Below, in pieces: positions 1 to 10,920 of a stretch of 10,920 bases of DNA. Location of the stretch: positions 1 through 10,920 of the forward strand of contig VAYL01000099.1 in NCBI GenBank assembly GCA_005884305.1. Reading direction: 5' to 3'. The position numbers were made by a program, and so were the translations under genes. This DNA is from Actinomycetota bacterium (lineage in GTDB: Bacteria > Actinomycetota > Thermoleophilia > Solirubrobacterales > 70-9). The notes beneath the pieces were generated by a model. The model worked only from the letters and a program-made list of their open reading frames with translations. It was not told the DNA's origin and ran no database searches. Each line of letters begins with the position of its first letter. Within the stretch, counting starts at the first letter, position 1.

Positions 1-1462
1 CCTCCTCGCAGGCCCCCCCGTGCCCAGCCGCCGCAGCGGGCCGAAGCGACAGCCCCTCGGCGCTCGCGAGGACGCGATCGGCGTCCTCCCGCAGCGCGGG
101 CTCCTGCTGGAGCAGGTCGGACACGGAGAACGCGTAGGAGCCGAACCGGTCGACCGCCTCCAGGTACGGTCCCGCCTGCACGGGGAAGTGCGCCGGCACC
201 GAGCCGGCGAGCTTGGGCTGAGCCGCCGGGCGGTAGTCCGGCGATACGACACCGCGCGCGACCTCGATCGCCCCGAGGGCCGTGCGTGCGCGCGGGGCGT
301 AGTCGCGGAAGTACTGCTCGGCGTTGTCGAGCTGCTTTACGTTTGTGAGCACGCCCACGATCCCGACGGCGAAGATGGCGATCATGGCCGTCCGCGAGAA
401 GCGCACGCCCGCCAGCGCCGCGGCCGCCACGAGCAGCACCAGTACCGCCCCGGCAAACAGGTAGCGGGACTCCGTCGGCGTGCGTCCCTCGGGCGCGAAT
501 CCCAGCGCCAGCTCGAGCCAGTAGGCGAGGAGGACGGCGAGCGCGACCCACACGAAGGGCGGGATCCGGCCCCGCGACAGCCGGACCGCGAACGCCACGA
601 TCGCGATCGGGGCGATCACGTAGCCCCACGACGGCGACACGGTCAGGCTGACCGCCCCCGAGCCGAGGTCGAGCCCCAGCCCGGTCACCGCGGCGCTCAC
701 GGCCGCGAGGGAGTCGGCCATAAATTGCGGCACGATCAGGAGGTTTCCAACGTGGGCCAGCCCCTCGTGGAACTGGAGCGCCCAGATCCACCAGGCCGCG
801 TAGACGGCCAGCGGGACCGCGAACACCCAGGCCCGCCGGAGCGCCCCGCCGCGGATGAGCACGGCGACGGCGACGCCGACCAGGAACGCGAGACCGGTCG
901 AATGACTGACGACCGACAACGACGCCAGCCCGCACCCCGCGATATCGCCCCGCAGGTCGTTCCGGTCGAGCGCCACGAGCGCGGCCAGCCCGAAGGCGAC
1001 CGCCAGCCCGAAGGTGAGCATCGTCAACGGCCACAGGAGCGCCTCCCATGCCGAGCCGAGAACCAGGAGAACCACGGCGGGGGCGAGCGCGATGGTCGGC
1101 CCCGCGCGCCGCTTCGCGAGGACGAACAGGAGGGCGGCGCACGCCACGAGGACGAGCACGCCGATCACGCGCAGCGGCGTGTAACTCGGCCCGGTCCAGT
1201 CGAAGACCGCCGCATAGACGAGGTGCGCCGGCGCGATGAGGTGCCCGTTATGCGGCTCGAGAATCGAGCGCGCGTCGATTCCCTCCCCCAGTCGCTGGAA
1301 AATCGCGACCTCGTCGTTGAAGAACGTGTTCGAGCGCGTCTCGACGAGGATCAGGAGCGCCGCGAACGCGCTGGCGAACGCAAGAACGATCCAGGCCTCG
1401 AAGTCGTCGAGCTGCCACCGGGAGGCGGCTCGACGTCGGGTTGCAGGCGGAGCCGGGCCCAT
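1..1462 (-). CDS. Polytopic membrane protein, GT-C-like (3' end outside window)
   Basis: Reading down from an ATG at 1462-1460, 487 codons stay open to the window edge, so the C-terminus is missing. An in-frame TAG at 1498-1496 closes the frame upstream, and this is the only ATG in between. No clear Shine-Dalgarno is visible. The protein has a short basic N-terminus, then about ten hydrophobic segments (near residues 22-41, 97-117, 123-141, 145-165, 175-202, 212-230, 280-295, 303-322, 335-353 and 358-374). A soluble tail follows from about residue 378. The first outer loop holds an acidic pair, D50-E51, after the first membrane segment, and an HNGH motif at 71-74. That layout recalls GT-C glycosyltransferases, which use lipid-linked sugars, but no family was confirmed. 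It could equally be an unclassified actinobacterial membrane protein. It is divergent from the secreted hydrolases, which makes a role in surface polysaccharide plausible. The coding call is strong and the function weak. Confidence 0.8.
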   Translation of the reverse strand, partial: MGPAPPATRRRAASRWQLDDFEAWIVLAFASAFAALLILVETRSNTFFNDEVAIFQRLGEGIDARSILEPHNGHLIAPAHLVYAAVFDWTGPSYTPLRVIGVLVLVACAALLFVLAKRRAGPTIALAPAVVLLVLGSAWEALLWPLTMLTFGLAVAFGLAALVALDRNDLRGDIAGCGLASLSVVSHSTGLAFLVGVAVAVLIRGGALRRAWVFAVPLAVYAAWWIWALQFHEGLAHVGNLLIVPQFMADSLAAVSAAVTGLGLDLGSGAVSLTVSPSWGYVIAPIAIVAFAVRLSRGRIPPFVWVALAVLLAYWLELALGFAPEGRTPTESRYLFAGAVLVLLVAAAALAGVRFSRTAMIAIFAVGIVGVLTNVKQLDNAEQYFRDYAPRARTALGAIEVARGVVSPDYRPAAQPKLAGSVPAHFPVQAGPYLEAVDRFGSYAFSVSDLLQQEPALREDADRVLASAEGLSLRPAAAAGHGGACEE

Positions 1463-1510
1463 GTCAGCGCGAAAGCCTACGGTGCTGCGCCGTCGCTACG
1501 ATCCTTACAC
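1463..1510. promoter_or_regulatory. Divergent intergenic region with weak promoter candidates
   Basis: This 48-bp gap lies between the start codons of the minus-strand membrane protein and the plus-strand hydrolase run, so promoters for both must sit here or inside the coding sequences. On the plus strand, TACGAT at 1497-1502 resembles a -10 hexamer. It lies so close to the GTG at 1511 that transcription could begin at or near that codon and give a leaderless mRNA, which is common in actinobacteria. No matching -35 is recognisable. On the minus strand only weak AT-richer words occur, such as TAAGGAT on the complement of 1500-1506. These are suggestions from position and sequence only. Confidence 0.3.
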
Positions 1511-2698
1511 GTGGACGCTGGCAGGGACAGCGACGGACCGTTCCCGCGGGTGGTGACGCTCGCGGCGGGGACCCTCTTGGTCGCGGTGGCGGTGTCCGTC
1601 CTCGCGTGCGGAGGGGGATCCTCGGTTGCGGCTTCCGGATCGACCGGGTCGACCAGGTCGGCCGGCAACGTGCACCTGGAGCACCTCTTCGGCGTGCAGC
1701 CGGGGCCGAGGCTCTTCGACGCGACCGACGGCGCGACGATCGCCAACACCGGGATCGGAACGGTCCGGATCGGCTTCGGCTGGCTGTTCGCGCAACCGCG
1801 CCCCGGGCCGTTCATCTGGAACCGGCTCGACGCGGAGGTGGCGGCGCTCGCCGCAAGCGGCATCCAGGTGGTGCCCCAGCTCGGCGGCGCCAGCAAGCCC
1901 ACCACGGCCCCGGTCGAGAGCTCGACGCAGAGGAAGGCCTGGAAGGCGTTCGTGACGGCCGCGGTCGAGCGCTACGGGCCGGGCGGCGACTTCTGGCGTC
2001 CCGTCGCGCATGGACCGAGTCCGTTCCACACCCGGTGCGGTTGCGTCGCGCCGGCGGTTCCGATCACCGAGTGGCAGGTCTGGAACGAGCCGAACCTGAC
2101 CAACTACTACACGCCGGAGCCGTCGCCGGCCGCCTACGCCCAGCTTCTCAAGATCACGCATTCCGCGATCCGAAAGGCCGACCCCAACGCCGAGGTGGTC
2201 CTCGGCGGGCTCTCCGACGGGGGGCGCAGGGAACACGACATCGGGGCGATCGGGTTCCTCAAGCGGCTCTACCGGATCCACGGGTCCAAGTCCACCTTCG
2301 ATGCCGCCGCCATCCATCCCTACGCGCGCGGGGTGAGCGGTACGCGCAGCGTGATCAAGGCCATCCGGGCCGTGATGAGGCACCGGCACGACGAGCACAC
2401 GCCCCTGTGGGTCACCGAGATCGGATGGGGATCCGCGCCCCCGAACGGCTTCGGCACCACCAAGGGGATACGCGGACAGCGGCGGATCGTCGAGAGGTCC
2501 ATGAAGATGTTCCTCCATGAGCGCAAGCGCTGGCACCTGCAGCGCGTGTACTGGTTCTTCTGGCGAGACCCGTCCAAGTCCGGCGCAGTGGGGCAACTGC
2601 CATGTCGCATCTGCTATTCCGCCGGGCTGCTCCACAGCAACCGCGAGCCCAAGCCCGCCTACAGGGCGTTCAAGCGGGTCGCCAGCCGGGCCCCCTGA
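1511..2698 (+). CDS. Secreted clan GH-A glycoside hydrolase, lipoprotein (copy 1)
   Basis: A 395-residue predicted retaining glycosidase, anchored outside the membrane. The N-terminus has Arg13, a hydrophobic stretch at about 14-32 and a lipobox-like VLAC ending at Cys33, followed by a Gly/Ser linker. The TIM-barrel hallmarks are a WNEPN motif whose Glu193 is the likely acid/base, an IHPYAR motif, and WVTEIGWGS with Glu303 the likely nucleophile. A CGC pair (C176, C178) lies before the NEP strand and a CRIC pair (C365, C368) near the C-terminus before SAGLL. The frame is open far upstream of this gene but has no nearby ATG, so GTG 1511 is chosen because it just precedes the signal peptide. 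GTG 1550 and 1553 are alternatives. The substrate and the CAZy family (GH39- or GH5-like) cannot be fixed by eye. The gene ends 9 bp before copy 2, so the two are probably co-transcribed. Confidence 0.85.
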   Translation: MDAGRDSDGPFPRVVTLAAGTLLVAVAVSVLACGGGSSVAASGSTGSTRSAGNVHLEHLFGVQPGPRLFDATDGATIANTGIGTVRIGFGWLFAQPRPGPFIWNRLDAEVAALAASGIQVVPQLGGASKPTTAPVESSTQRKAWKAFVTAAVERYGPGGDFWRPVAHGPSPFHTRCGCVAPAVPITEWQVWNEPNLTNYYTPEPSPAAYAQLLKITHSAIRKADPNAEVVLGGLSDGGRREHDIGAIGFLKRLYRIHGSKSTFDAAAIHPYARGVSGTRSVIKAIRAVMRHRHDEHTPLWVTEIGWGSAPPNGFGTTKGIRGQRRIVERSMKMFLHERKRWHLQRVYWFFWRDPSKSGAVGQLPCRICYSAGLLHSNREPKPAYRAFKRVASRAP

Positions 2699-2707
2699 GA
2701 CCTACCG

Positions 2708-3826
2708 ATGCGCAAACCCACCATCGCGGCCGCCGCTCTGGTGGCCATCGTCCTCGCCGGGTGCGGTTCGGGCTCCTCGACGTCCGCCCCGGCGGCGGTC
2801 AGCGTGCCGAAGGACTTCTTCGGCGTCGACCCGGGGGTTGCAACCGACGCCCAGGACTTCCAGCAGATGCCCAACGCCGGTGTGGAGACCGTCCGCACCG
2901 GGTTGAGTTGGTCGTCGGTCCAGCCGGAGCAGGGGCCGCTCAACTGGCGCGTGGCCGACGTCAGGGTCGCGCAACTCGCGGGCAACGGGATGGAGTTCCT
3001 GCCGGTCCTCGCAAGCACGCCGGCCTGGATCGCGACGCCACCCGCGACCCCGCCGATCGGCTCGCAGGCGATCGAGGCATGGACACAGTTCCTCAAGGCC
3101 GCGGTCGCCCGCTACGGGCCCGGCGGGACCTTCTGGCAGCCGGCTGAGGGTGGCGGGCCTAGCCCCTTTCACTCCCTGTGCCACTGCGACGCAGACCCCA
3201 TGCCGATCAGCTCGTGGCAGGTGTGGAACGAGCCGACCCTCAGCCACTATTTCAACGTGAGCTCTCCGGTCCAGAGCTACGCAAAGTTGCTCCAGGTCTC
3301 GCACGACGCGATCACAAGCGTGGACCCCAAGGCCCAGATCGTCCTCGCCGGCGTGCCCGGCTTCGGCACGAAGGGAAGCGAGAACGCCTGGCAGTTCCTG
3401 GGCGAGCTCTTCCGCACCCTGGGCAATGGCGACGACTTCGACGTGGTCGCCCTGCACCCATATGCGAGAAGCACCAGCCAGCTCGAACTCGAGATCAAGA
3501 AGGTGCGGGCGGTGATGAACGAGAACGGCGATGGCGCGAAGCCGCTCTGGATCACCGAGCTGGGCTGGGGATCGGGCCCGCCGGACCGCTTTGGATTCAA
3601 CAAGGGCACACAGCGCCAGGCGCAGTTGCTGACGCAGGCGTACTCCCTCCTGCTGCGCGACCGAGCCTCGTGGCACCTCGATCGCGTCTATTGGTTCGAG
3701 TGGCGGGACCCACCCCCCTCGTCCGACCTCTCTTGCAGCTTCTGCGGCTCCGCGGGCCTCCTGCAGAACGACCGCAAGCCGAAGCCCGCATACGACGCGT
3801 TCACGCAGTTCACCGGCGGCTCCTAG
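2708..3826 (+). CDS. Secreted clan GH-A glycoside hydrolase, lipoprotein (copy 2)
   Basis: A 372-residue paralogue of copy 1. The start ATG follows the previous stop by 9 bp, and an MRKP n-region, hydrophobic core and clear LAGC lipobox (Cys19) follow directly. A Ser/Ala linker leads into the DFFGVDPG motif that opens the barrel in this family. The predicted acid/base is Glu175 in WNEPT, with Thr where the other copies have Asn. The predicted nucleophile is Glu284 in WITELGWGS, and LHPYAR lies between them. Cysteine pairs C158/C160 (CHC) and C343/C346 (CSFC) match those of copies 1 and 3. It ends with the family pattern KPKPAYDAF and a short tail. There is no strong ribosome-binding site, so translation may be coupled to copy 1. 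It probably cleaves a beta-linked glycan outside the membrane, but the substrate is unknown. Confidence 0.9.
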   Translation: MRKPTIAAAALVAIVLAGCGSGSSTSAPAAVSVPKDFFGVDPGVATDAQDFQQMPNAGVETVRTGLSWSSVQPEQGPLNWRVADVRVAQLAGNGMEFLPVLASTPAWIATPPATPPIGSQAIEAWTQFLKAAVARYGPGGTFWQPAEGGGPSPFHSLCHCDADPMPISSWQVWNEPTLSHYFNVSSPVQSYAKLLQVSHDAITSVDPKAQIVLAGVPGFGTKGSENAWQFLGELFRTLGNGDDFDVVALHPYARSTSQLELEIKKVRAVMNENGDGAKPLWITELGWGSGPPDRFGFNKGTQRQAQLLTQAYSLLLRDRASWHLDRVYWFEWRDPPPSSDLSCSFCGSAGLLQNDRKPKPAYDAFTQFTGGS

Positions 3827-3875
3827 ACCTGAGTGAACCGGCGGCTATCTTGTCTGCGGCACCGATGCATGGGAC

Positions 3876-3881
3876 GGAGGG
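3876..3881 (+). promoter_or_regulatory. Shine-Dalgarno for hydrolase copy 3
   Basis: A GGAGGG-type purine run sits about 8 bases before ATG 3889. The alternative ATG at 3865 has no such element. This, together with the signal-peptide position, decides the start. The exact edges may be off by one base. Confidence 0.65.
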
Positions 3882-3888
3882 AAAGCGA

Positions 3889-5031
3889 ATGGCGGGCCTG
3901 ATAGCGCTTCTCGCCACGGCGCTTGTGTTCCTGCTTCCCAGCGGAGCCGCGTCCGCGCCCTCCGCGCGAGGGCAGGGTGGTGGTGACGCCCACGTGCGCG
4001 TTCCGAGCGGCTTTCTCGGCGTGCTTTCCGGCCCGACCCCCTTCGACTCGGAGGACGCCACGAAGATGGCCAGGACGCGGATCCGGACGGTGCGCATCAG
4101 CCTGCCGTGGTACGCAGCGCAACGACGCCGGGGCGCCTTCACCTGGGAACCGAGCGACACGATGATCGCTCGTATGGCGGCAGAGGGAATCACAGTCCTT
4201 CCGACCCTCGCTGGGACCCCCCGATGGGTGGCCGGCAAGCCGACGACACCACCGGTCGCCGACCAAGAGGCGAAGGACGCGTGGCAAACCTTCGTGACGG
4301 CGGTTGTGCGCCGCTACGGCCGTGACGGCGTCTTCTGGAGATCGGACGCAGGCGAACCGAGCCCGTTCCAGGCGCAATGCGGCTGTGATGCTCCCCCCGC
4401 TCCGATCACGGCGGTACAGATTTGGAACGAGCCCAACCTGAGGAAGTACTTCACCCCGATACGGTCGGCGAAGAGGTACGCCGAGCTGGTCGAGTTGTCG
4501 CACTCGGCGATCGATGAAGCGGGCCGCAGAGTGAAGCTGGTCCTCGGTGGCCTCTCCGACGGCGGCGATCCGGGCGAAAAGGGGGCGACTTCGTATCTCC
4601 GGAAGCTCTACCGGGTCCCGGGGGTCAAGGAGAGCTTCGATGCGGTCGCCATCCACCCTTACGCTCGTAACCTACGCAATCTCCGCACCGTGATGAGTGA
4701 ATTCCGCCGGATGATGAGGAAGCACGGTGACGGGCGCACGCCGCTGTGGATCACCGAAATCGGGTGGGGATCCCAGCACCCGAATCGCTACGGACACGAC
4801 AAGGGTCCGGGTGGGCAGCGGCGGATGCTCCGAAGGGCCATGTCCCTCATCGCGCGCAAGCGCCTGAGCTGGCGCGTGGAGCACGCGTACTGGTTCTTCT
4901 GGCGCGATCCGCCCAAGACCTCCACCCACGCCGACTGCAGCTTCTGCACCTCCGCCGGCCTCCTGTGGAACTCCGGCCACCCGAAGCCGGCCTACAAGGC
5001 GTACGCGCGACTGCTCAAGCGCCCTCGCTGA
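3889..5031 (+). CDS. Secreted clan GH-A glycoside hydrolase (copy 3)
   Basis: A 380-residue paralogue. ATG 3889 is preferred over the in-frame ATG 3865 because GGAGG lies about 8 bases before it and the signal peptide begins there. The N-terminus is a hydrophobic core ending ASA after residue 23, a type I signal-peptidase site, with no lipobox cysteine. This copy is therefore predicted to be released, unlike copies 1 and 2. The barrel opens with GFLGVLSG. Glu181 in WNEPN is the predicted acid/base and Glu290 in WITEIGWGS the nucleophile, with IHPYAR between. Cysteine pairs C164/C166 (CGC) and C350/C353 (CSFC) are present. The C-terminus has HPKPAYKAYARLL. Copies 1 and 3 share GGLSDGG after the fifth strand, so they are closer to each other than to copy 2. 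It lies 62 bp after copy 2 and 34 bp before the small glycine-rich gene, same strand. Confidence 0.9.
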   Translation: MAGLIALLATALVFLLPSGAASAPSARGQGGGDAHVRVPSGFLGVLSGPTPFDSEDATKMARTRIRTVRISLPWYAAQRRRGAFTWEPSDTMIARMAAEGITVLPTLAGTPRWVAGKPTTPPVADQEAKDAWQTFVTAVVRRYGRDGVFWRSDAGEPSPFQAQCGCDAPPAPITAVQIWNEPNLRKYFTPIRSAKRYAELVELSHSAIDEAGRRVKLVLGGLSDGGDPGEKGATSYLRKLYRVPGVKESFDAVAIHPYARNLRNLRTVMSEFRRMMRKHGDGRTPLWITEIGWGSQHPNRYGHDKGPGGQRRMLRRAMSLIARKRLSWRVEHAYWFFWRDPPKTSTHADCSFCTSAGLLWNSGHPKPAYKAYARLLKRPR

Positions 5032-5065
5032 GCGCCCGAATCCCGATGGGTAAGCTTCTCCATTC

Positions 5066-5386
5066 GTGAGGCGGGAGACGTACCGACACACGTGGGCCCG
5101 CGGCCGCGGGCGGTTGGTCATCGTCGCCGTGACGCTGCTCCTTCTGGGAGCGCCGGCGGGCGCGTCGGCGAGCAACCCGGCCCAGGACCAGTACAAGCTC
5201 CCCACGCCCAGCGCCACCGGCGGCGGTGGCGGCAACGGCGGGGGCAGGCTCGATCCCGCGGCGACGACCTCGGGCTCGGGCTCGGATACCGCCACCGTCG
5301 CGATCCTCGCGGGAGGGCTTGTGGCGATCTGCGCGGCCGCGGCGGTGATCGTCTACCGCCGACGGCGCACCAGCGAGACCAGCTAA
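5066..5386 (+). CDS. Small Gly-rich secreted/membrane-anchored protein, unknown function
   Basis: A 106-residue protein starting at GTG 5066. The basic N-terminus (residues 1-16) is followed by a hydrophobic segment at 17-31 and a plausible cleavage after ASA near residue 35. An exported linker comes next: a DQYKLPTP motif at 41-48, a glycine tract around 52-60, then a Gly/Ser stretch to about 74. A second hydrophobic helix at about 77-97 ends in four arginines (98-101), which as a positive-inside stop-transfer places the C-terminus in the cytoplasm. The shape is that of a small type I membrane stalk. It resembles a sortase-type tail in having a helix plus basic end, but no LPXTG-like motif precedes the helix. 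It lies between two hydrolases on the same strand, so it may be co-expressed and could tether or assist them. No function is recognised. The start lacks a strong ribosome-binding site. Confidence 0.65.
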   Translation: MRRETYRHTWARGRGRLVIVAVTLLLLGAPAGASASNPAQDQYKLPTPSATGGGGGNGGGRLDPAATTSGSGSDTATVAILAGGLVAICAAAAVIVYRRRRTSETS

Positions 5387-5395
5387 CAACTCGAG

Positions 5396-5402
5396 AAGGA
5401 GG
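5396..5402 (+). promoter_or_regulatory. Shine-Dalgarno for hydrolase copy 4
   Basis: AAGGAGG, a near-perfect anti-16S match, lies 9 bases before ATG 5412. It is the strongest ribosome-binding site in the hydrolase run, although the gene it serves is now disrupted. The reading frame may therefore have been lost only recently, or the sequence may contain an error. Confidence 0.75.
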
Positions 5403-5411
5403 CGGGAGCCG

Positions 5412-6450
5412 ATGACGCGGAGGGCGATGCTCTTCATGCTTGCGACGGTCGCGACCGCGTCCTTCCTTGTTTCGCCTGCGGCGGCAAAGGGCCCCAAGGA
5501 CTTCTTCGGAGTCGTCCAGGGACCCGCGTTCACTCAGCGTGACTACCAGCAGCTCGGCAAGGCCGGCACCGGAACGGTCCGCTTCGGCCTGCAGTGGAAC
5601 ATCGTGCAGCCCACCCGCACGAGCGGCTTTCGCTGGAGCGTCTACGACGCCAGGATCGGCACTCTCGCCGCCCACGGGATTCGATCGTTCCCGACCCTGG
5701 GGAGCAGCCCGCCCTGGATCGCCAGCAAGCCCACGCATCCGCCCCTCAAGTCGAAGAAGGCCAAGCGCGCGTGGAGCAGGTTCGTGACCGCGGCGGTGAA
5801 CCGCTACGGGCGAGGCGGGTCCTACTGGCGCACGACCTACCGTCAGCAGCACCCGGGCAAGCCGCAGCGCCCGATCAGTGAGTGGCAGATCTGGAACGAG
5901 CCGAACCTCGCGAAGTTCTTCCCGAAGAAGCGCCGGGTCCGCAACTACGCGAAGCTCGTGAAGATCTCCCACAAGGCGATTCGCCGCGGGGATCGCCGCG
6001 CAGCATCCGAGCGCGGACAAGTTCCTCGGCCGCCTGTACCACGTCAAGGGGTTCAAGCGGTCGTTCGACTCCGCCGCCCTGCACCCGTACGCGACGAACA
6101 TGAGGAAGTTCGTGACGGCCATCAAGCGGATGCGCCAGACGATGAAGCGCCATCACGACAAGCGGGCGGGACTGTGGCTGACGGAGGTCGGGTGGGGCTC
6201 GAGTCACAACGGCCAGCGCCTCAACAAGGGCAAGCGGGGCCAGAAGCGGCTGCTCAAGAAGTCATTCAGCGTGTCGGTCCACAAGCGGCGCAAGTGGCAC
6301 ATCCAGGGAGTGCAGTGGTTCGACTGGCGGGATCCCGGCGCCGGTCAGCCGACCGGCTGCTCGTTCTGCAGCAGCGCGGGACTGCTAAAGCACAACTACG
6401 CCAAGAAACCCGCCTACCGGGCGTTCAGGCAGTTGGCGAAGCGCTACTGA
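5412..6450 (+). pseudogene. Secreted GH-A hydrolase copy 4, frameshifted
   Basis: Two pieces of one hydrolase lie in different frames. The first (5412 to about 5990) has a signal peptide ending near AAA at residue 25, DFFGVVQG, and WNEPN with the predicted acid/base Glu163. The second (about 5992-6450) resumes with FLGRLYHVKG and continues through LHPYA, LTEVGWGS (nucleophile codon 6184-6186), CSFC and KPAYRAF to a TGA at 6448-6450. The join lies near 5985-6000. The paralogues have a strand of the type DP-A-VVLAGLSG here and this copy lacks it, so roughly 25-45 bases (net 2 modulo 3) seem to be gone. TCGCCGCG occurs at 5981-5988 and again at 5993-6000, a possible slippage site. If read through uncorrected, the first frame continues to 6623 as unrelated sequence. 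Lys-rich, and without the CxC pair of copies 1-3. A sequencing error is possible, but a one-base fix would not restore the lost strand. Confidence 0.8.
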
Positions 6451-6719
6451 CCGCCGGCCATCGCCGGCAGGATCATGACGGTGTCGGCATCCGAGACCGC
6501 GGTGTCGAGGCCGTCGAGCACGCGGACGTCCTCGTCGTTCAGGTACACGTTGACGTACCGGTTGAGCTCGCCGCCGTCCGAGAACAGCTGGGAGTGCGTA
6601 CCGGGGTGTGTCTCTGCGAGTGAGCGCAGAACGTCCCCGACCGTGGACCCGGGCGTCGCGACCTCCGCCTCGCCCGCGGTCTGGGGACGGAGCACTGGCG
6701 GGATCTTGACGGTGGGCAT
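6444..6719 (-). CDS. cysO: CysO-like sulfur carrier protein (MoaD/ThiS family)
   Basis: A 91-residue beta-grasp, ubiquitin-like sulfur carrier. Its sequence pattern closely follows mycobacterial CysO: IPPVLRP near the start, then NRYVNVYLNDEDVR (53-66), a GLDTAVSDAD stretch and an ILPAMAGG end. In this family the terminal Gly-Gly is adenylated by a MoeB/MoeZ-type enzyme and converted to a thiocarboxylate that donates sulfur, in CysO's case for cysteine synthesis. Here G89-G90 is followed by one extra residue, Gln91, so the carrier would need trimming before activation. The gene starts 12 bp after the moeZ-like stop and is almost certainly in its operon. Its TAG stop (6444-6446) lies inside the 3' end of hydrolase copy 4 on the other strand, a 7-bp tail-to-tail overlap. 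A MoaD role in molybdopterin synthesis is the alternative, but the sequence fits CysO better. Confidence 0.88.
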   Translation of the reverse strand: MPTVKIPPVLRPQTAGEAEVATPGSTVGDVLRSLAETHPGTHSQLFSDGGELNRYVNVYLNDEDVRVLDGLDTAVSDADTVMILPAMAGGQ

Positions 6720-6731
6720 CCGGGCGCGAAT

Positions 6732-7916
6732 CTAGCGCAGCACCGGCTCGCCGGCGCAGAAGGCCTCGTAGTCGGGAAACTTGCCCATCTCCGACTCCGG
6801 GATCTCCGTCGCGTGGTCGCCGCAGATCGGGCAGTCCGGGTCGCGCTTGACCTTGAGCTCGGTGAACCGGGTGCCCAGCGAGTCATAGAGCAGGAGCCGG
6901 CCGACGAGCGGCTCGCCGACGCCGGTGACCAGCTTGATCACCTCGTTCGCCTGGAGCAGTCCCATGACGCCGGCCATGACGCCGAGGACGCCCGCCGCGC
7001 CGCAGCTCGGGGCCATCTCGGGCGGCGGGGGCACGGGATAGAGGCAGCGGTAGCAGGGCCCCGCGTACGGGACGAACGTCGAGACCTGGCCGTCGAAGGC
7101 GAGAATCGAGGCCGAGACCACGGGCGTGCGCAGCCGCACCGACGCGTCGTTCAAGAGGTAACGGGTCGGGAAGTTGTCCGCCCCGTCGACGAGCACGTCG
7201 TAGTCGGAGATGATGTCGAGGACGTTCTCGGCGTTGAGGCGGGTCCGATGCTCGACGACCTTGACGTCGGGGTTGAGCGCCTCGATGGAGGCCTTGGCCG
7301 ACGCGGTCTTCGGCATCCCGACGCGATCGGTCGTGTGGATCACCTGGCGCTGGAGATTGGTCTCGTCGACGACGTCGTCGTCGACGATCCCGAGCGTGCC
7401 AACGCCGGCCGCGGCGAGATAGAAGGCCGACGGAGCGCCGAGCCCACCGGCGCCGATCAGCAGGACCTTGGAGTTCAGCAGCTTGACCTGTCCCTCGACT
7501 CCGATCTCGGGGAGCAGTGTGTGGCGGGAATAGCGCATCCGCTGCTCGGGCGTGAGCTCGTGCGCCGCGACCACCGGGAAGCCGTCGTCCTGCCAGGACA
7601 CGATCCCGCCCCGCATCACCGAGACGTTCTCGTAGCCCAGGTCCTGGAGCGCATCGGCCGCCCGGGAGGAGCGGTTGTCGGTGCGGCAGTAAAGGACGAT
7701 CCGCTCGGAGTGATCGGGCGCGACATCTCCGATCCGCTCGAGAAGCTCGCCCTGCGGGACGTGGACGGCGTCCTCGAGATGGGCCTCGTCCCACTCGTGT
7801 GGCTCGCGCACGTCGATCAGCTTCGCGCCGGCCTCGACCTCCTCGCGCGCCTTGGTGTTCGCGATGAGATCGATCCTCTGCTTGACCTGCTCGATCGGCT
7901 CAGCGGCGGTCGCCAT
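6732..7916 (-). CDS. moeZ: MoeZ-like sulfur-carrier activating enzyme with N-terminal rhodanese domain
   Basis: A 394-residue fusion predicted to adenylate and sulfurate the neighbouring carrier. Residues about 15-118 form a rhodanese domain with LIDVREPHEW and an active-site loop beginning at Cys77 (CRTDNRS). Residues about 125-360 form a ThiF/MoeB E1-like domain. It has the nucleotide-binding GAGGLG (155-160), DDDVVDETNLQRQ (179-191), the DGADNFPTRYLLND stretch (244-257) and a candidate catalytic Cys305 in APSCGAAGVLG. Zinc cysteines are C288/C291 (CYRC) and C362/C365 (CPIC). In well-known MoeZ and MOCS3 proteins the ThiF domain comes first and rhodanese last, so the order here is reversed. 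GGGAG about 7 bases before ATG 7916 supports the start. The cysO-like gene follows 12 bp downstream. No Mec protease or CysM is visible in the window. Confidence 0.92.
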   Translation of the reverse strand: MATAAEPIEQVKQRIDLIANTKAREEVEAGAKLIDVREPHEWDEAHLEDAVHVPQGELLERIGDVAPDHSERIVLYCRTDNRSSRAADALQDLGYENVSVMRGGIVSWQDDGFPVVAAHELTPEQRMRYSRHTLLPEIGVEGQVKLLNSKVLLIGAGGLGAPSAFYLAAAGVGTLGIVDDDVVDETNLQRQVIHTTDRVGMPKTASAKASIEALNPDVKVVEHRTRLNAENVLDIISDYDVLVDGADNFPTRYLLNDASVRLRTPVVSASILAFDGQVSTFVPYAGPCYRCLYPVPPPPEMAPSCGAAGVLGVMAGVMGLLQANEVIKLVTGVGEPLVGRLLLYDSLGTRFTELKVKRDPDCPICGDHATEIPESEMGKFPDYEAFCAGEPVLR

Positions 7917-7943
7917 CCAATACTCCCAAATCTCGATCCGGAT
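7917..7943 (-). promoter_or_regulatory. Leader of moeZ-cysO with RBS and candidate -10
   Basis: The 27-bp gap upstream of moeZ is AT-richer than its surroundings and contains GGGAG as ribosome-binding site (minus strand). A TATACT word on the minus strand (complement of about 7959-7964) lies just inside the end of the decayed hydrolase remnant and could be the -10 of the moeZ-cysO promoter. No clear -35 was found, so the promoter call is tentative. Confidence 0.35.
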
Positions 7944-8575
7944 TTACTTCAAAAAGTATAGCCCGGCGAGACCTAGCGCCCCCTGCTTCTTCGCGAAGCG
8001 CTTGAAGTGCTTGTACCACGGCTTGTGGCTCCCGTCGTGCCTCACCAGCCCCGCCGAGGGACAGAAGCTGCAGGTGGCCTGCGCGCCGGCCGCCGGATCG
8101 CGCCAGTCGAACCAGTACACCCGGTTGATCTTCCACGTCTTGCGCTTCTTCAACGTGACCGAAAACGACTTCCTGAGGAGCTTCGCCTGGCCGGCGAGCC
8201 CCGCGTTCAGGCGCTGGCCGTTGCTTGCCGAGCCCCAGCCCACCTCGGTCAGCCAGATCGGCTTCTTTCTTCGCACCGCCCCGGTCCAGCGCCTTGCGGA
8301 ACTTCGAGACTCGCGCCTTGTACTCGTTGATCTTCGACGCGTACGGATGCAGCGCCGCCGCGTTGAAGTGCTTCGTGGTCTTCTTGACCTTCAGGAACTT
8401 CTTGATGAACCTCTGCGGGGCCATCTTTGGGGACTTCGAGTTGCCCGAGAGCCCGGCGAGGATCACCTTGGCGTGCTTGTCGGCCGAGCCGATCGCCTTG
8501 TCGGACGCCTTCACGAGCTTCGCGTAGGCCTTGGCGGCTTGAGGCACCAGCTGGGGCGGGTAGGGTGCGCCGGCG
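7944..8575 (-). pseudogene. 5'-truncated, frameshifted GH-A hydrolase remnant (copy 5)
   Basis: Minus-strand homology to copy 4 begins abruptly near 8565-8575 with AYAKLVKASDKAI, just after the point where the WNEP motif should be. The signal peptide, the first half of the barrel and the acid/base glutamate are therefore absent. The body continues with ADKHAKVILAGLSG, LHPYA and RKALDRGGA. A second lesion follows: near 8262-8272 (a CTTCTTTCTTC tract) the frame shifts by one base. It then resumes as RRKKPIWLTEVGWGS, with the nucleophile glutamate intact, through WFDWRDP, CSFCPSAGL and a lysine-rich end to a TAA at 7946-7944. Two independent lesions make a functional enzyme very unlikely. The upstream boundary is approximate, since homology fades into sequence that resembles nothing else here. 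The group traits (Lys-rich, SNGQRLN after the nucleophile) match copy 4 and not copies 1-3. Confidence 0.85.
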
Positions 8576-8627
8576 AACCTGCAAGCACGCGATGCTAGCC
8601 AACGATCGGCGGGTGCGCGAGGGTCCG
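8576..8627. other. Rearrangement-scar-like gap between htpX and hydrolase remnant
   Basis: A short non-coding stretch between the htpX stop and the start of homology of the truncated hydrolase. It contains CGATCGGCGGGTGCG at 8603-8617, an exact 15-base copy of a segment inside the htpX 3' end at 8675-8689, in the same orientation and 72 bp away. No promoter, terminator or attachment site is recognisable. Confidence 0.5.
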
Positions 8628-9488
8628 CTAGCTGAGACTCGGGCGCATCTGCCGCAGGCGCCGGACGCGCTCCTCGATCGGCGGGTGCGTCGAGAAGAGA
8701 CTGGCGATCCCGCCGCCCGCGAAGGGCTTGACGATGTAGAGCGGCTCGGTCGCCTGGTTGACCTGCATCGGCATCGCCTTCGCCCCCTCCTCGAGGCGCA
8801 GGAGCGCCGAGGCGAGGGACTCGGGGTTGCCGCAGATCTCGGCCCCGGTGGCGTCCGCCGAGTACTCGCGCTGGCGAGAGACCGCGAGCTGGATGAGGCT
8901 CGCCGAGATCGGAGCCAGCAGGAAGAGCGCCAGGTTGGCGATGAGCCCGAGCGGCGACTCGTCGTCGCCGCCGAACCACAACATCAAGTAGGCGATCCAG
9001 GTGATCATCGCGCCGATCGCCGAGGCGATCGACGTCGTGAGGATGTCGTAGTGACGCACGTGCGCGAGCTCGTGCGAGAGGACGCCGCGCAGCTCGTCCT
9101 CGGAAAGGAGCTTCGTGATGCCGGAGGTCACGGCGACCGCCGCGTGCTTGGGATTGCGGCCCGTCGCGAAGGCGTTCGGCTGGTCGCTCGGGATGACGTA
9201 AAGGCGCGGCATCGGAAGGCCGGCCCGCGTGGTGAGCTCGCGGACCATCTGGTAGAGCCGCGGCGCGTCGGACTCCGAGACCGGCTTTGCACCGGCGCTG
9301 GCGATCGCGATCTTGTCGCTGAACCAGTAGGCGACGAAGTTCATGACCAGCGCGATGACCAGGAAGACGCTCGCGATCTTGATGCCGCCGATCGCGTAGC
9401 CGATGACGACCAAAAGGCCGCCGAGCGCGGCCATGAGGATGACCGTGCGAATGCCTGCGACGAAGTTGGATCTGCCGGTGGTAGTCAT
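8628..9488 (-). CDS. htpX: HtpX-family M48 membrane zinc metalloprotease
   Basis: A 286-residue integral membrane protease of the HtpX type, which degrades misfolded or surplus membrane proteins at the cytoplasmic face. Two N-terminal membrane helices (about 13-33 and 38-56) are followed by a linker and the conserved NAFATGRNPKHAAVAVTSG block (105-123). The zinc-binding HELAH has ligands H139 and H143 and catalytic E140. Two further hydrophobic helices (about 152-172 and 178-203) precede E208 in SRQREYSAD, the expected third zinc ligand. The C-terminal FSTHPPIEERVRRLR signature is present. Length and motif order are normal for the family, so it should be active. ATG 9488 is chosen because the protein then begins with the usual short polar leader. 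AAGGAG lies about 12 bases upstream, rather far. It is divergent from the histidine kinase, across a 150-bp gap with inverted repeats. Confidence 0.95.
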   Translation of the reverse strand: MTTTGRSNFVAGIRTVILMAALGGLLVVIGYAIGGIKIASVFLVIALVMNFVAYWFSDKIAIASAGAKPVSESDAPRLYQMVRELTTRAGLPMPRLYVIPSDQPNAFATGRNPKHAAVAVTSGITKLLSEDELRGVLSHELAHVRHYDILTTSIASAIGAMITWIAYLMLWFGGDDESPLGLIANLALFLLAPISASLIQLAVSRQREYSADATGAEICGNPESLASALLRLEEGAKAMPMQVNQATEPLYIVKPFAGGGIASLFSTHPPIEERVRRLRQMRPSLS

Positions 9489-9560
9489 TCGAGGGGCGAG
9501 CTCCTTGGCGTTGGACTCGAACGCTCGTCCAATGGTGGCACACGACTAGCTTGATTCCGG

Positions 9561-9577
9561 TGGGGTGAGCCACCCCA
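9561..9577. repeat. Perfect 7-bp inverted repeat, TGGGGTG-N3-CACCCCA
   Basis: The two arms are 9561-9567 and 9571-9577, separated by AGC. The dyad is exact. With a 3-base loop it could fold as a hairpin or act as a protein-binding palindrome. No U-tract follows on either strand, so an intrinsic terminator is unlikely. Confidence 0.6.
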
Positions 9578-9579
9578 AT

Positions 9580-9603
9580 CGACTAGGTGCTGGCCCCTAG
9601 TCG
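9580..9603. repeat. Perfect 8-8-8 inverted repeat (CGACTAGG...CCTAGTCG), candidate operator
   Basis: Arms at 9580-9587 and 9596-9603 are exact reverse complements with an 8-base spacer. The centre lies about 44 bp upstream of a start point inferred from the GATACT -10 at 9624-9629, a typical place for an activator site. A third CGACTAG half-site sits at 9543-9549, on the htpX side. A regulator dimer, such as the NarL-type regulator encoded next door, could bind here. That link is inference. Confidence 0.55.
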
Positions 9604-9638
9604 TCGAAACCGCTCACGAGGCCGATACTTAGGAATAC

Positions 9639-10685
9639 ATGCGCCGGCAGAATCTCCTCACCCAGGTACTCGTCGCGAACCTGCTGCTGATGGTCGCGGC
9701 GGTCGTCGCCCTGGCGATCGCCGGAAACCCCAGCCTGGACGTATCGAGCCACCCGCAGCTAGCGGTGATCCTCGCGCTCGCCGTCGGGCTGATGATCCTC
9801 GTCAACGTGCTGATGCTGCAGCGGCGCTTCCGGCCCCTGGAGCGGCTCGTGGAGGAGATGGAGCGGGTCGATCTGGCGCGGCCCGGCGCGAACCTGCAGA
9901 TCCCGGCCGACGGCCTCGGCGCCTCGGAGGAGGTCGAACGGCTCAACCGTGCCTTCCGGCGAATGCTCGAGCGACTGGAGGCGGAGCGGCGCCGCACGTC
10001 CAGCACGGCGCTCGCGGCGCAGGAGCAGGAACGCGCAAGGGTGGCCCGCGACCTCCACGACGAGGTCAATCAGTCGTTGACGGCGCTTCTCCTCCGTCTC
10101 GAGGCCGCCCGGGCGAGGGCGCCCGTCGAGGTCGCCCACGAGCTCGCCGAGACCAAGGCGCTCGCCAACCGGGCGATGGAGGAGCTCCTGATGCTGGCCC
10201 GCCAGCTGCGCCCGACCGCGCTCGACGACCTGGGTCTGAAGGCCGCAGTCGCGGGGCACGTGACCGAGCTCGGCCGTCGCGGGAAGATCATGATCAGCTT
10301 CGACTCCGACGGCGATTTTTCGGGTCTGCCAGCGGACGTTCAGCTGGTGGCGTACCGGGTCGCCCAGGAGGCGCTGTCGAACGCCGTGCAGCACTCCGGC
10401 GCCGGCCACGTTCACGTAAATCTGGTGCGCAGGGCGGCTCGCTTGGAGGTGCGGGTCGAGGACGACGGCTCGGGATTCACCTTCGACCAGGCCACTCGCG
10501 GTCTGGGCATCGCGGGCATGCGCGAGCGCGCCCTCCTCGTCGGCGGCGACGTGCACGTCGAATCCCGGCCGGGGGCGGGCACCCGGGTGCTCCTAACGGT
10601 GCCGCTCGAAGAGGCCGATAGAGCTTCCGAATGGAAGCGGAACGGGCATCAGCGGTCGTCGTCGCCGAGACCAACGGGACGATGA
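9639..10685 (+). CDS. NarL-type sensor histidine kinase (HAMP, HisKA_3, HATPase_c)
   Basis: A 348-residue membrane histidine kinase. Two membrane helices at about 8-28 and 39-60 are joined by only about ten outer residues, so there is no room for a classical periplasmic sensor. A HAMP-like region follows at about 61-115 and a coiled stretch to about 130. The dimerisation/phosphoacceptor motif ARDLHDEVNQSL carries His140. The ATPase domain shows the N box (N248 in EALSNAVQHS), the DDGSGF G1 box (275-280) and GLGIAGMRERA (from 288). This is the HisKA_3 type that pairs with NarL/LuxR-class regulators. ATG 9639 has AGGA 4 bases upstream. The stop overlaps the regulator start as ATGA, so the pair is translationally coupled. 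The short sensor suggests it reads membrane state or a partner protein, as with LiaS-like kinases. The signal is not known. Confidence 0.93.
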   Translation: MRRQNLLTQVLVANLLLMVAAVVALAIAGNPSLDVSSHPQLAVILALAVGLMILVNVLMLQRRFRPLERLVEEMERVDLARPGANLQIPADGLGASEEVERLNRAFRRMLERLEAERRRTSSTALAAQEQERARVARDLHDEVNQSLTALLLRLEAARARAPVEVAHELAETKALANRAMEELLMLARQLRPTALDDLGLKAAVAGHVTELGRRGKIMISFDSDGDFSGLPADVQLVAYRVAQEALSNAVQHSGAGHVHVNLVRRAARLEVRVEDDGSGFTFDQATRGLGIAGMRERALLVGGDVHVESRPGAGTRVLLTVPLEEADRASEWKRNGHQRSSSPRPTGR

Positions 10686-10920
10686 AGGTCCTGATCGCCG
10701 ACGATCACGGAATCGTCCGCTCGGGCCTGCGGATGCTGCTGGAGCAGCAGGCCGACATCGAGGTGATCGGCGAGGCCTCGGATGGGGCCGAGGCCCGCGA
10801 CATGGCGATCCGCGAGAAGCCCGACCTGGCGATCCTCGACGTCAAGATGCCAAAGCTCACCGGCCTCCAGGCGACGCGCGAGATCCGAGCCCACGCGCCC
10901 GACGTCTCGATCCTGATCCT
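10682..10920 (+). CDS. Response regulator receiver domain, NarL/LuxR class (3' end outside window)
   Basis: The first 79 codons of the partner regulator. The receiver begins MKVLIADDHGIVRSGL, with the acidic pair D7-D8 and the predicted phosphoacceptor Asp53 in LAILDVKMPKLTGL. The DDH start and the P-LTG loop are typical of the NarL/LuxR class, which ends in a helix-turn-helix. That part lies beyond the window and is inferred. ATG 10682 overlaps the kinase stop by 4 bases, supporting coupled translation. An in-frame ATG at 10631 would add 17 residues of poor family fit and is less likely. The regulator probably controls an envelope-related regulon and may control its own operon through the inverted repeat at 9580-9603. 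Confidence 0.92.
   Translation, partial: MKVLIADDHGIVRSGLRMLLEQQADIEVIGEASDGAEARDMAIREKPDLAILDVKMPKLTGLQATREIRAHAPDVSILI

Follow-up and report, generated by a model that had tools for sequence, protein, structure and literature searches.

PslG-Like Hydrolase Arrays in Solirubrobacterales: Probable Members of a Polysaccharide Module with Repeated Amplification at a Shared Site

Introduction

PslG, a retaining endo-beta-glucanase of glycoside hydrolase (GH) family 39, is encoded in the Psl exopolysaccharide operon of Pseudomonas aeruginosa. Both its catalytic activity and its association with the inner membrane support the production of Psl, and the released enzyme degrades Psl (PMC6813494). 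Hydrolases are also encoded within other exopolysaccharide operons, namely BcsZ, PgaB and PssZ (PMC6813494). Here, we describe a stretch of 10,920 nucleotides from an actinobacterium of the order Solirubrobacterales (contig VAYL01000099.1, positions 1 to 10,920; hereafter, the window), in which five copies of a PslG-like hydrolase gene are clustered around the genes moaD, moeB and htpX. The window is the start of contig C244 (14,891 nt) of a genome bin that is 73% complete. BcsZ, PgaB and PssZ belong to enzyme families other than that of the window hydrolases; they are likewise encoded with synthesis genes, and the comparison with them is one of principle only.

PslG-type hydrolases are already known, and what differs here is their occurrence in arrays with varied anchoring and an additional Cys-x-Cys (CxC) loop. 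In the literature searched (titles and abstract openings, with subscription journals thinly covered), no title deals with PslG-like arrays in Thermoleophilia, and at title level no account of the surface polysaccharide genes of Solirubrobacterales was found. A survey of locus duplication in exopolysaccharide operons (PMC7112194) does not mention PslG in its main text.

The Five Copies

Pairwise and profile searches agree on five homologous segments in the window, in line with the original prediction of four tandem hydrolase paralogues on the plus strand and one remnant on the minus strand. Copy 1 (1550..2698, plus strand), copy 2 (2708..3826, plus strand) and copy 3 (3889..5031, plus strand, with a further ATG at 3865) have open reading frames, and the count of three intact copies is thereby borne out. 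The start of the array had been placed at 1511; the first start codon is in fact a GTG at 1550. Copy 2 is 46% identical to copy 1 (E 3e-96) and 43% identical to copy 3 (E 3e-98), while copies 1 and 3 share 48% identity. This likeness is far above chance.

The other two copies are broken. Copy 4 (5412..6450, plus strand), which lies between a gene for a small membrane protein and moaD, is a pseudogene in two frames: a short out-of-frame deletion near 6009 has removed about 14 residues along with the frame, so that the alignment runs over query positions 13-211 and then 226-368. Copy 5 (~8562-7944, minus strand), located between moeB and htpX, is a remnant that is both truncated and frameshifted. 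What is left covers no more than model positions 170-262 and 257-355, in two frames, which corresponds to the C-terminal half of the domain. Given the incomplete bin, the breaks in both copies could partly be assembly errors; the loss of half of copy 5 is hard to explain in that way. An FGV-type opening motif had been ascribed to all five copies and is present in four; copy 5 lacks both this motif and WNEP because its N-terminal half is gone.

Fold, Family and Catalytic Residues

The predicted model (predicted local distance difference test score, pLDDT, 91.3) has eight strands alternating with helices, forming a (beta/alpha)8 barrel, and its top Foldseek and VIA matches are barrels of clan GH-A. 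Copies 1, 2 and 3 match PF11790 (Glyco_hydro_cc) above the cut-off. In copy 2, E175 of the NE motif (the predicted acid/base) and E284 (the predicted nucleophile) align with the catalytic residues of PslG; in the predicted model, E175 follows the strand at 169-172 and E284 lies within the strand at 280-285. Both glutamates are invariant across 68 aligned rows. The membership of clan GH-A and the resemblance to PslG that had been proposed by eye are therefore supported by profile, predicted fold and catalytic-residue alignment.

PslG is the best match to the window enzymes by both profile and fold. In addition to the catalytic glutamates, the HPY motif and an aromatic residue at the position of PslG Phe319 (F330 in copy 2) align. 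PslG is exported, as the window enzymes are predicted to be, and in relatives of the window the enzymes are often encoded near polysaccharide assembly genes. The differences are considerable: identity to PslG is only ~22-25%, the C-terminal CxxC of the window family has no counterpart in the PslG alignment, copies 1-3 have the additional CxC loop, and the paralogues occur in arrays in an actinobacterial host. The GH39 beta-xylosidases and the Bacteroides cellulosilyticus GH39 enzyme (2bs9, 4ekj, 5jvk) are less similar to the window enzymes than PslG is. Judged from sequence, the family may best be described as PslG-like, within clan GH-A, nearest to GH39, and its members as putative endoglycosidases.

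A cellulase (GH5) assignment was considered and rejected. PF00150 matches five places in the genome, none of them on the window's contig, and among copies 1-3 it is listed (E up to 1) for copy 2 only, below the cut-off.

A Shared Site at moaD, moeB and htpX

Downstream of copy 4, the minus strand encodes a MoaD/ThiS-like sulfur carrier protein (6444..6719; PF02597, E 1.3e-14), a MoeB-like adenylyltransferase with a rhodanese domain (6732..7916; NF006444, above cut-off) and, beyond copy 5, an HtpX-like zinc metalloprotease (8628..9488; best match NF002839, E 8e-103, below that model's cut-off). These are followed on the plus strand by a histidine kinase gene (9639-10685; PF07730, PF02518) and a response regulator gene (10631 on; PF00072), the pair covering 9639..10918. 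Together, they mark a site that can be recognised in other genomes.

Four genomes from three genera (G043, G025, G028 and G026) share the order Wzy_C, small membrane protein, one hydrolase, moaD and moeB, with htpX next after moeB wherever the contig reaches. In G026 and G028, moaD and moeB are separated by an additional gene, and in G043 htpX is not followed by the kinase/regulator pair. In the window, the genes keep the shared order, with four hydrolases plus the remnant between moeB and htpX. Four hydrolases are also found at the moaD-moeB site in G049 and G048, which belong to one genus. In G020, a member of the window's genus, two hydrolases adjoin moaD; if its contigs C90 and C25 join, the array runs to nine hydrolases before Wzy_C is reached. 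The small membrane protein is then encoded at the end towards Wzy_C, and a homologue of the window's polytopic membrane protein lies within the array. The adjacency of these contigs is likely, since their ends share 140 bases with 2 mismatches, but is not proven because the overlap falls in a repeated Ig-like region. G022 has a single hydrolase, next to moaD. By contrast, the hydrolase closest to moeB in G032, G040 and G041 is 5-8 kb away, across other genes. Across the window's taxonomic family, a hydrolase lies within 10 kb of the moeB orthologue in 12 of 44 genomes (~1.0 expected) and within 5 kb in nine (~0.5 expected).

The small membrane protein is encoded in the window at 5066..5386 (plus strand), directly ahead of copy 4. 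It has a signal peptide, a D-Q-Y motif, a Gly/Ser linker, a transmembrane helix and an Arg-rich tail. More generally, the signal peptide is followed by a brief motif whose last residue is Y (D-Q-Y, D-E-Y, G-Q-Y or N-V-Y), and then by a linker, a transmembrane helix and a tail of basic character. We drafted a fixed rule for the helix and tail after viewing examples. Of 117 family genes whose upstream sequence was long enough, 9 have such a gene immediately upstream; of 387 other genes, none has. The Y motif was seen in eight of the nine matches, L118 being judged on its last 130 residues only. Inspection by eye adds L048, L146 and L148, and in L145 the protein adjoins Wzy_C without a recognised hydrolase. 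No Pfam family scored above cut-off in the four proteins tested, the window's included. The protein recurs upstream of the hydrolase, often by Wzy_C, in the window (5066-5386), L043, L053, L064, L128, L147, L148 and L151.

That this gene precedes copy 4 makes copy 4 the probable equivalent of the hydrolase that occurs singly in other genera. Copy 4 also groups in the tree with G020:C108, which likewise has such a gene upstream (support 82).

Association with Polysaccharide Assembly Genes

The window contig starts within the gene for a membrane protein, so the link to polysaccharide assembly rests on relatives. Neighbours were counted in 13 genomes picked for contiguity or relevance, as genes with a family gene within 5 kb; contig ends were ignored in the expected values, and second gene pieces or short fragments were dropped (13 of 72 Wzy_C, 1 of 45 PF02397 and 5 of 53 PF00248 rows). 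Gene calls came from a simple script based on a codon model, and labels from BLAST or, for chosen genes, from Pfam, which leaves many neighbours unlabelled. Twelve of 59 Wzy_C genes are close to a family gene against 1.0 expected, as are 9 of 44 PF02397 sugar transferase genes against 0.8. The control family, PF00248, gives 0 of 48 against 0.6 expected (1 of 48 within 10 kb, against 1.1). Glycosyltransferase genes are also often found beside family genes in relatives, and PF02397 and Wzy_C occur together in several genomes. The G020 contig with most of its array also carries a flippase-like gene, two genes for sulfotransferases and a Wzy-like match that is weak and under the cut-off; a Wzx-like PF01943 gene and Wzy_C share one G020 contig.

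The polytopic membrane protein of the window (2..1462, minus strand) is divergent from the array and cut at the contig start. Homologues with 32-39% identity occur in 8 of 12 other genomes searched, and a homologue lies within 5 kb of a family gene in four of the nine genomes that have one. Counted by gene, the proportion is 6 of 19, the window's included, against 0.3 expected. The protein has no Pfam, NCBIfam or PDB match, its single-sequence model is too poor for use (pLDDT 48), and a profile of six homologues matched no solved structure and, among Pfam families, nothing convincing (E 0.16 for one member). The label "GT-C-like" given to it earlier could not be confirmed. The idea of a polysaccharide locus beside this protein fared better, being supported through the Wzy_C, PF02397 and glycosyltransferase genes of relatives, although these are not the neighbours first named. 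Absence of clustering elsewhere was the point at which the idea was open to refutation; the family does cluster in other genomes, and the idea survives that test.

These counts also bear on whether the enzymes are instead scavenging hydrolases that feed the cell by digesting polysaccharides of plants, fungi or other bacteria and have expanded for substrate range. The many copies per genome, the lack of a lipobox in copy 3 and the C-terminal Ig-like repeats (PF19077, PF17936) of several same-genus members would fit such a role, Ig-like repeats being common in matrix-binding secreted enzymes. However, family genes lie near polysaccharide assembly genes above expectation, and PslG, the closest enzyme with a solved structure, has the polymer of its own host as substrate. 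Judged from the neighbours that carry labels, we consider scavenging unlikely.

Distribution and History

A match at E 1e-15 or better was found in 35 of 50 genomes of the window's taxonomic family (its own included), with up to 16 matches in the same-genus G020. In a class-level sample, 20 of 119 genomes have a match, 16 of them from the same order. A scan of named genomes gave 142 matching stretches and 140 relatives; the best 80 of these (77 loci) come from Solirubrobacterales, Thermoleophilia, unranked actinobacterial or bacterial bins and five Solirubrobacter species. One entry labelled Bifidobacterium breve (L129, CAMCUD010000019.1) groups with a Solirubrobacteraceae bin in the tree and is perhaps a mislabelled bin. 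Nine plasmid records contain relatives, every one below 60% identity. A Methanomethylovorans plasmid gene annotated as "disaggregatase-related" (H1, NC_019972.1 141935-142858) is 27% identical to copy 2 and possibly encodes another self-polymer hydrolase.

One FastTree and two mixture-model trees, all unrooted, were built. Members from the window's genus form one clade (59 rows with support 99 in FastTree; 25 rows with 99 in a mixture-model tree), which is separate from the clade of the G048/G049 arrays (support 97 and 86, respectively); each clade also includes copies from other places. Because the two are apart, separate origins are most likely for the arrays at the shared site. Copy 1 is closest to copy 3 (99 in FastTree, 96 in a mixture-model tree), and copies 1-3 come together in the two mixture-model trees (82; 94 with their relatives). 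Copies 4 and 5 are sisters in FastTree (96). In the mixture-model trees, which do not include copy 5, copy 4 instead groups with copies from G020 (82; 80). We are unsure of the sister pairing.

Copy 1 falls in a clade of 12 rows, its own database entry included, while the relatives of copy 2 are 58-74% and those of copy 3 54-63% identical to them. By sequence comparison, copies 1-3 are older paralogues, and other metagenomes contain separate relatives of each. Equal contig sizes (for instance 4,957 for P0017, P0129 and P0133; 10,491 for P0009 and P0127) suggest that relatives of two or three of them share one contig elsewhere, as far as size alone can indicate. The picture of five diversifying copies is therefore to be narrowed: two are broken, and the three live ones are of older origin.

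Could the array be the product of neutral tandem duplication followed by decay, with redundant paralogues eroding? Two of five copies are broken, as this would predict. Against it, copies 1, 2 and 3 each have a clade of relatives, both catalytic motifs are kept in 10 of 10, 29 of 29 and 10 of 10 listed relatives, respectively, and the lipobox of copy 2 is widely retained (see below). Neutral decay therefore seems very improbable. The broken copies and the separate arrays at one site also resemble a birth-and-death pattern, as might be expected if the enzymes attacked the polymers of competing strains or served self-recognition, with array turnover tracking the surface glycans of rivals. Yet several genera keep a single copy beside assembly genes, and competition seems improbable.

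Anchoring and Cysteine Motifs

The original prediction of two lipoproteins and one released enzyme holds firmly for copy 2, less so for copy 1. Copy 2 has the lipobox LAGC, and by motif a lipobox is present in 28 of 30 rows of its clade. Copy 1, with VLAC, is a possible lipoprotein on weaker evidence; 5 of 11 rows of its clade have a lipobox and one other row is cut at the start. Copy 3 has a signal-like N-terminus without a lipobox, and none was found in the 11 rows of its clade, one of which is cut at the start. Six of ten listed copy 3 relatives (P0123, P0124, P0127-P0130) have natural runs of four to seven His after a signal-like N-terminus, which is not present in the window's own copy 3.

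WNEPT had been noted as peculiar to copy 2, and this is confirmed among the rows sampled. The last position is Ser in 13 and Asn in 2 of 15 sampled rows of the copy 2 clade, and Asn in 50 of 50 other homologues. The mature parts of copies 1-3 have four cysteines, as CxC and CxxC (C158/C160 and C343/C346 in copy 2). By regular expression, the C-terminal CxxC is found in 215 of 243 rows, which include database entries of the window's own proteins, and CxC ahead of the WNE motif in 37; in one of these 37 rows, the loop that holds it is unlike the others and rich in proline. Many same-genus members (L043-L047, L051, L054-L056; G020, G021) have C-terminal Ig-like repeats, identified as PF19077 and PF17936 in the three members scanned; window copies 1-3 have none.

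Other Features of the Window

Copies 1-3, the small membrane protein gene and copy 4 look like a single transcription unit because the gaps between them are ~10 to 60 bases; this putative unit is divergent from the membrane-protein gene at 1462-2. A search for sigma-70 promoters found none, and a terminator search gave 5 matches against 3.1 in shuffled sequence. A further, distant family member (28%) is located on contig C23 of the window genome.

Proposed Role and Meaning

The reading that we regard as moderately probable is that of a PslG-like endoglycosidase belonging to an exopolysaccharide module of Solirubrobacterales, in which anchored copies edit the chain, copy 3 loosens the matrix, and separate amplifications produced the arrays. 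The enzymes probably trim or release the cell's own polymer, because relatives often keep them beside surface-polysaccharide genes. By analogy with PslG, we infer a division of labour. The enzymes would be exported, and lipid-anchored copies (2, perhaps 1) would sit close to the polymerase on the membrane's outer face. There, they would cut the chain, whether nascent or retained, through a retaining mechanism with two glutamates; this would set chain length and release polymer. Copy 3, which has no anchor, would loosen the matrix at a greater distance from the membrane. Different genera may each have amplified an ancestral single copy, located at the moaD end of the module and presumably paired with the small membrane protein. 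In the window genome, this putative ancestral copy (copy 4) would now be broken, leaving three older paralogues with the Cys-x-Cys loop.

Several points weigh against this reading. Firstly, the part of PslG itself in synthesis is disputed, with an opposing study cited in PMC6813494, and PF01229 (GH39) stays under its cut-off of 26 bits in copies 1-3 (17.8, 21.4 and 13.4 bits). Secondly, the association is far from universal: 32 of 44 genomes have no family gene within 10 kb of moeB, the same-genus G021 (L152) has the moaD-moeB-htpX site without any family gene, most Wzy_C genes (47 of 59) and PF02397 genes (35 of 44) have no family gene within 5 kb, and in 5 of the 13 genomes, the window's among them, no Wzy_C gene pairs with a family gene at that distance. 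The window, whose contig begins inside the membrane protein, holds no Wzy, flippase or priming transferase. Thirdly, the neighbour families were picked after the neighbourhoods had been viewed, in related genomes. Finally, FastTree did not place copy 2 with copies 1 and 3.

A more elaborate version can be proposed only tentatively. Here, the module would be an undescribed one, in which the small D-Q-Y membrane protein partners the hydrolase and a Wzy_C-TPR polymerase/ligase, and arrays of hydrolase paralogues at the shared site are rebuilt time and again for changing polymers. Copies 1-3 would be metal-binding or disulfide-braced via CxC and CxxC, aided by the His-rich linkers in copy 3 relatives.

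For PslG, it is disputed whether a hydrolase built into such a locus is a maker of exopolysaccharide or a mere degrader. The recurrence and order of the PslG-like hydrolase in its probable Solirubrobacterales module are real, and the number, anchoring and loops of the enzymes vary at one shared site across genera, which provides a comparative series. Cultured Solirubrobacter species carry distant members of the family.
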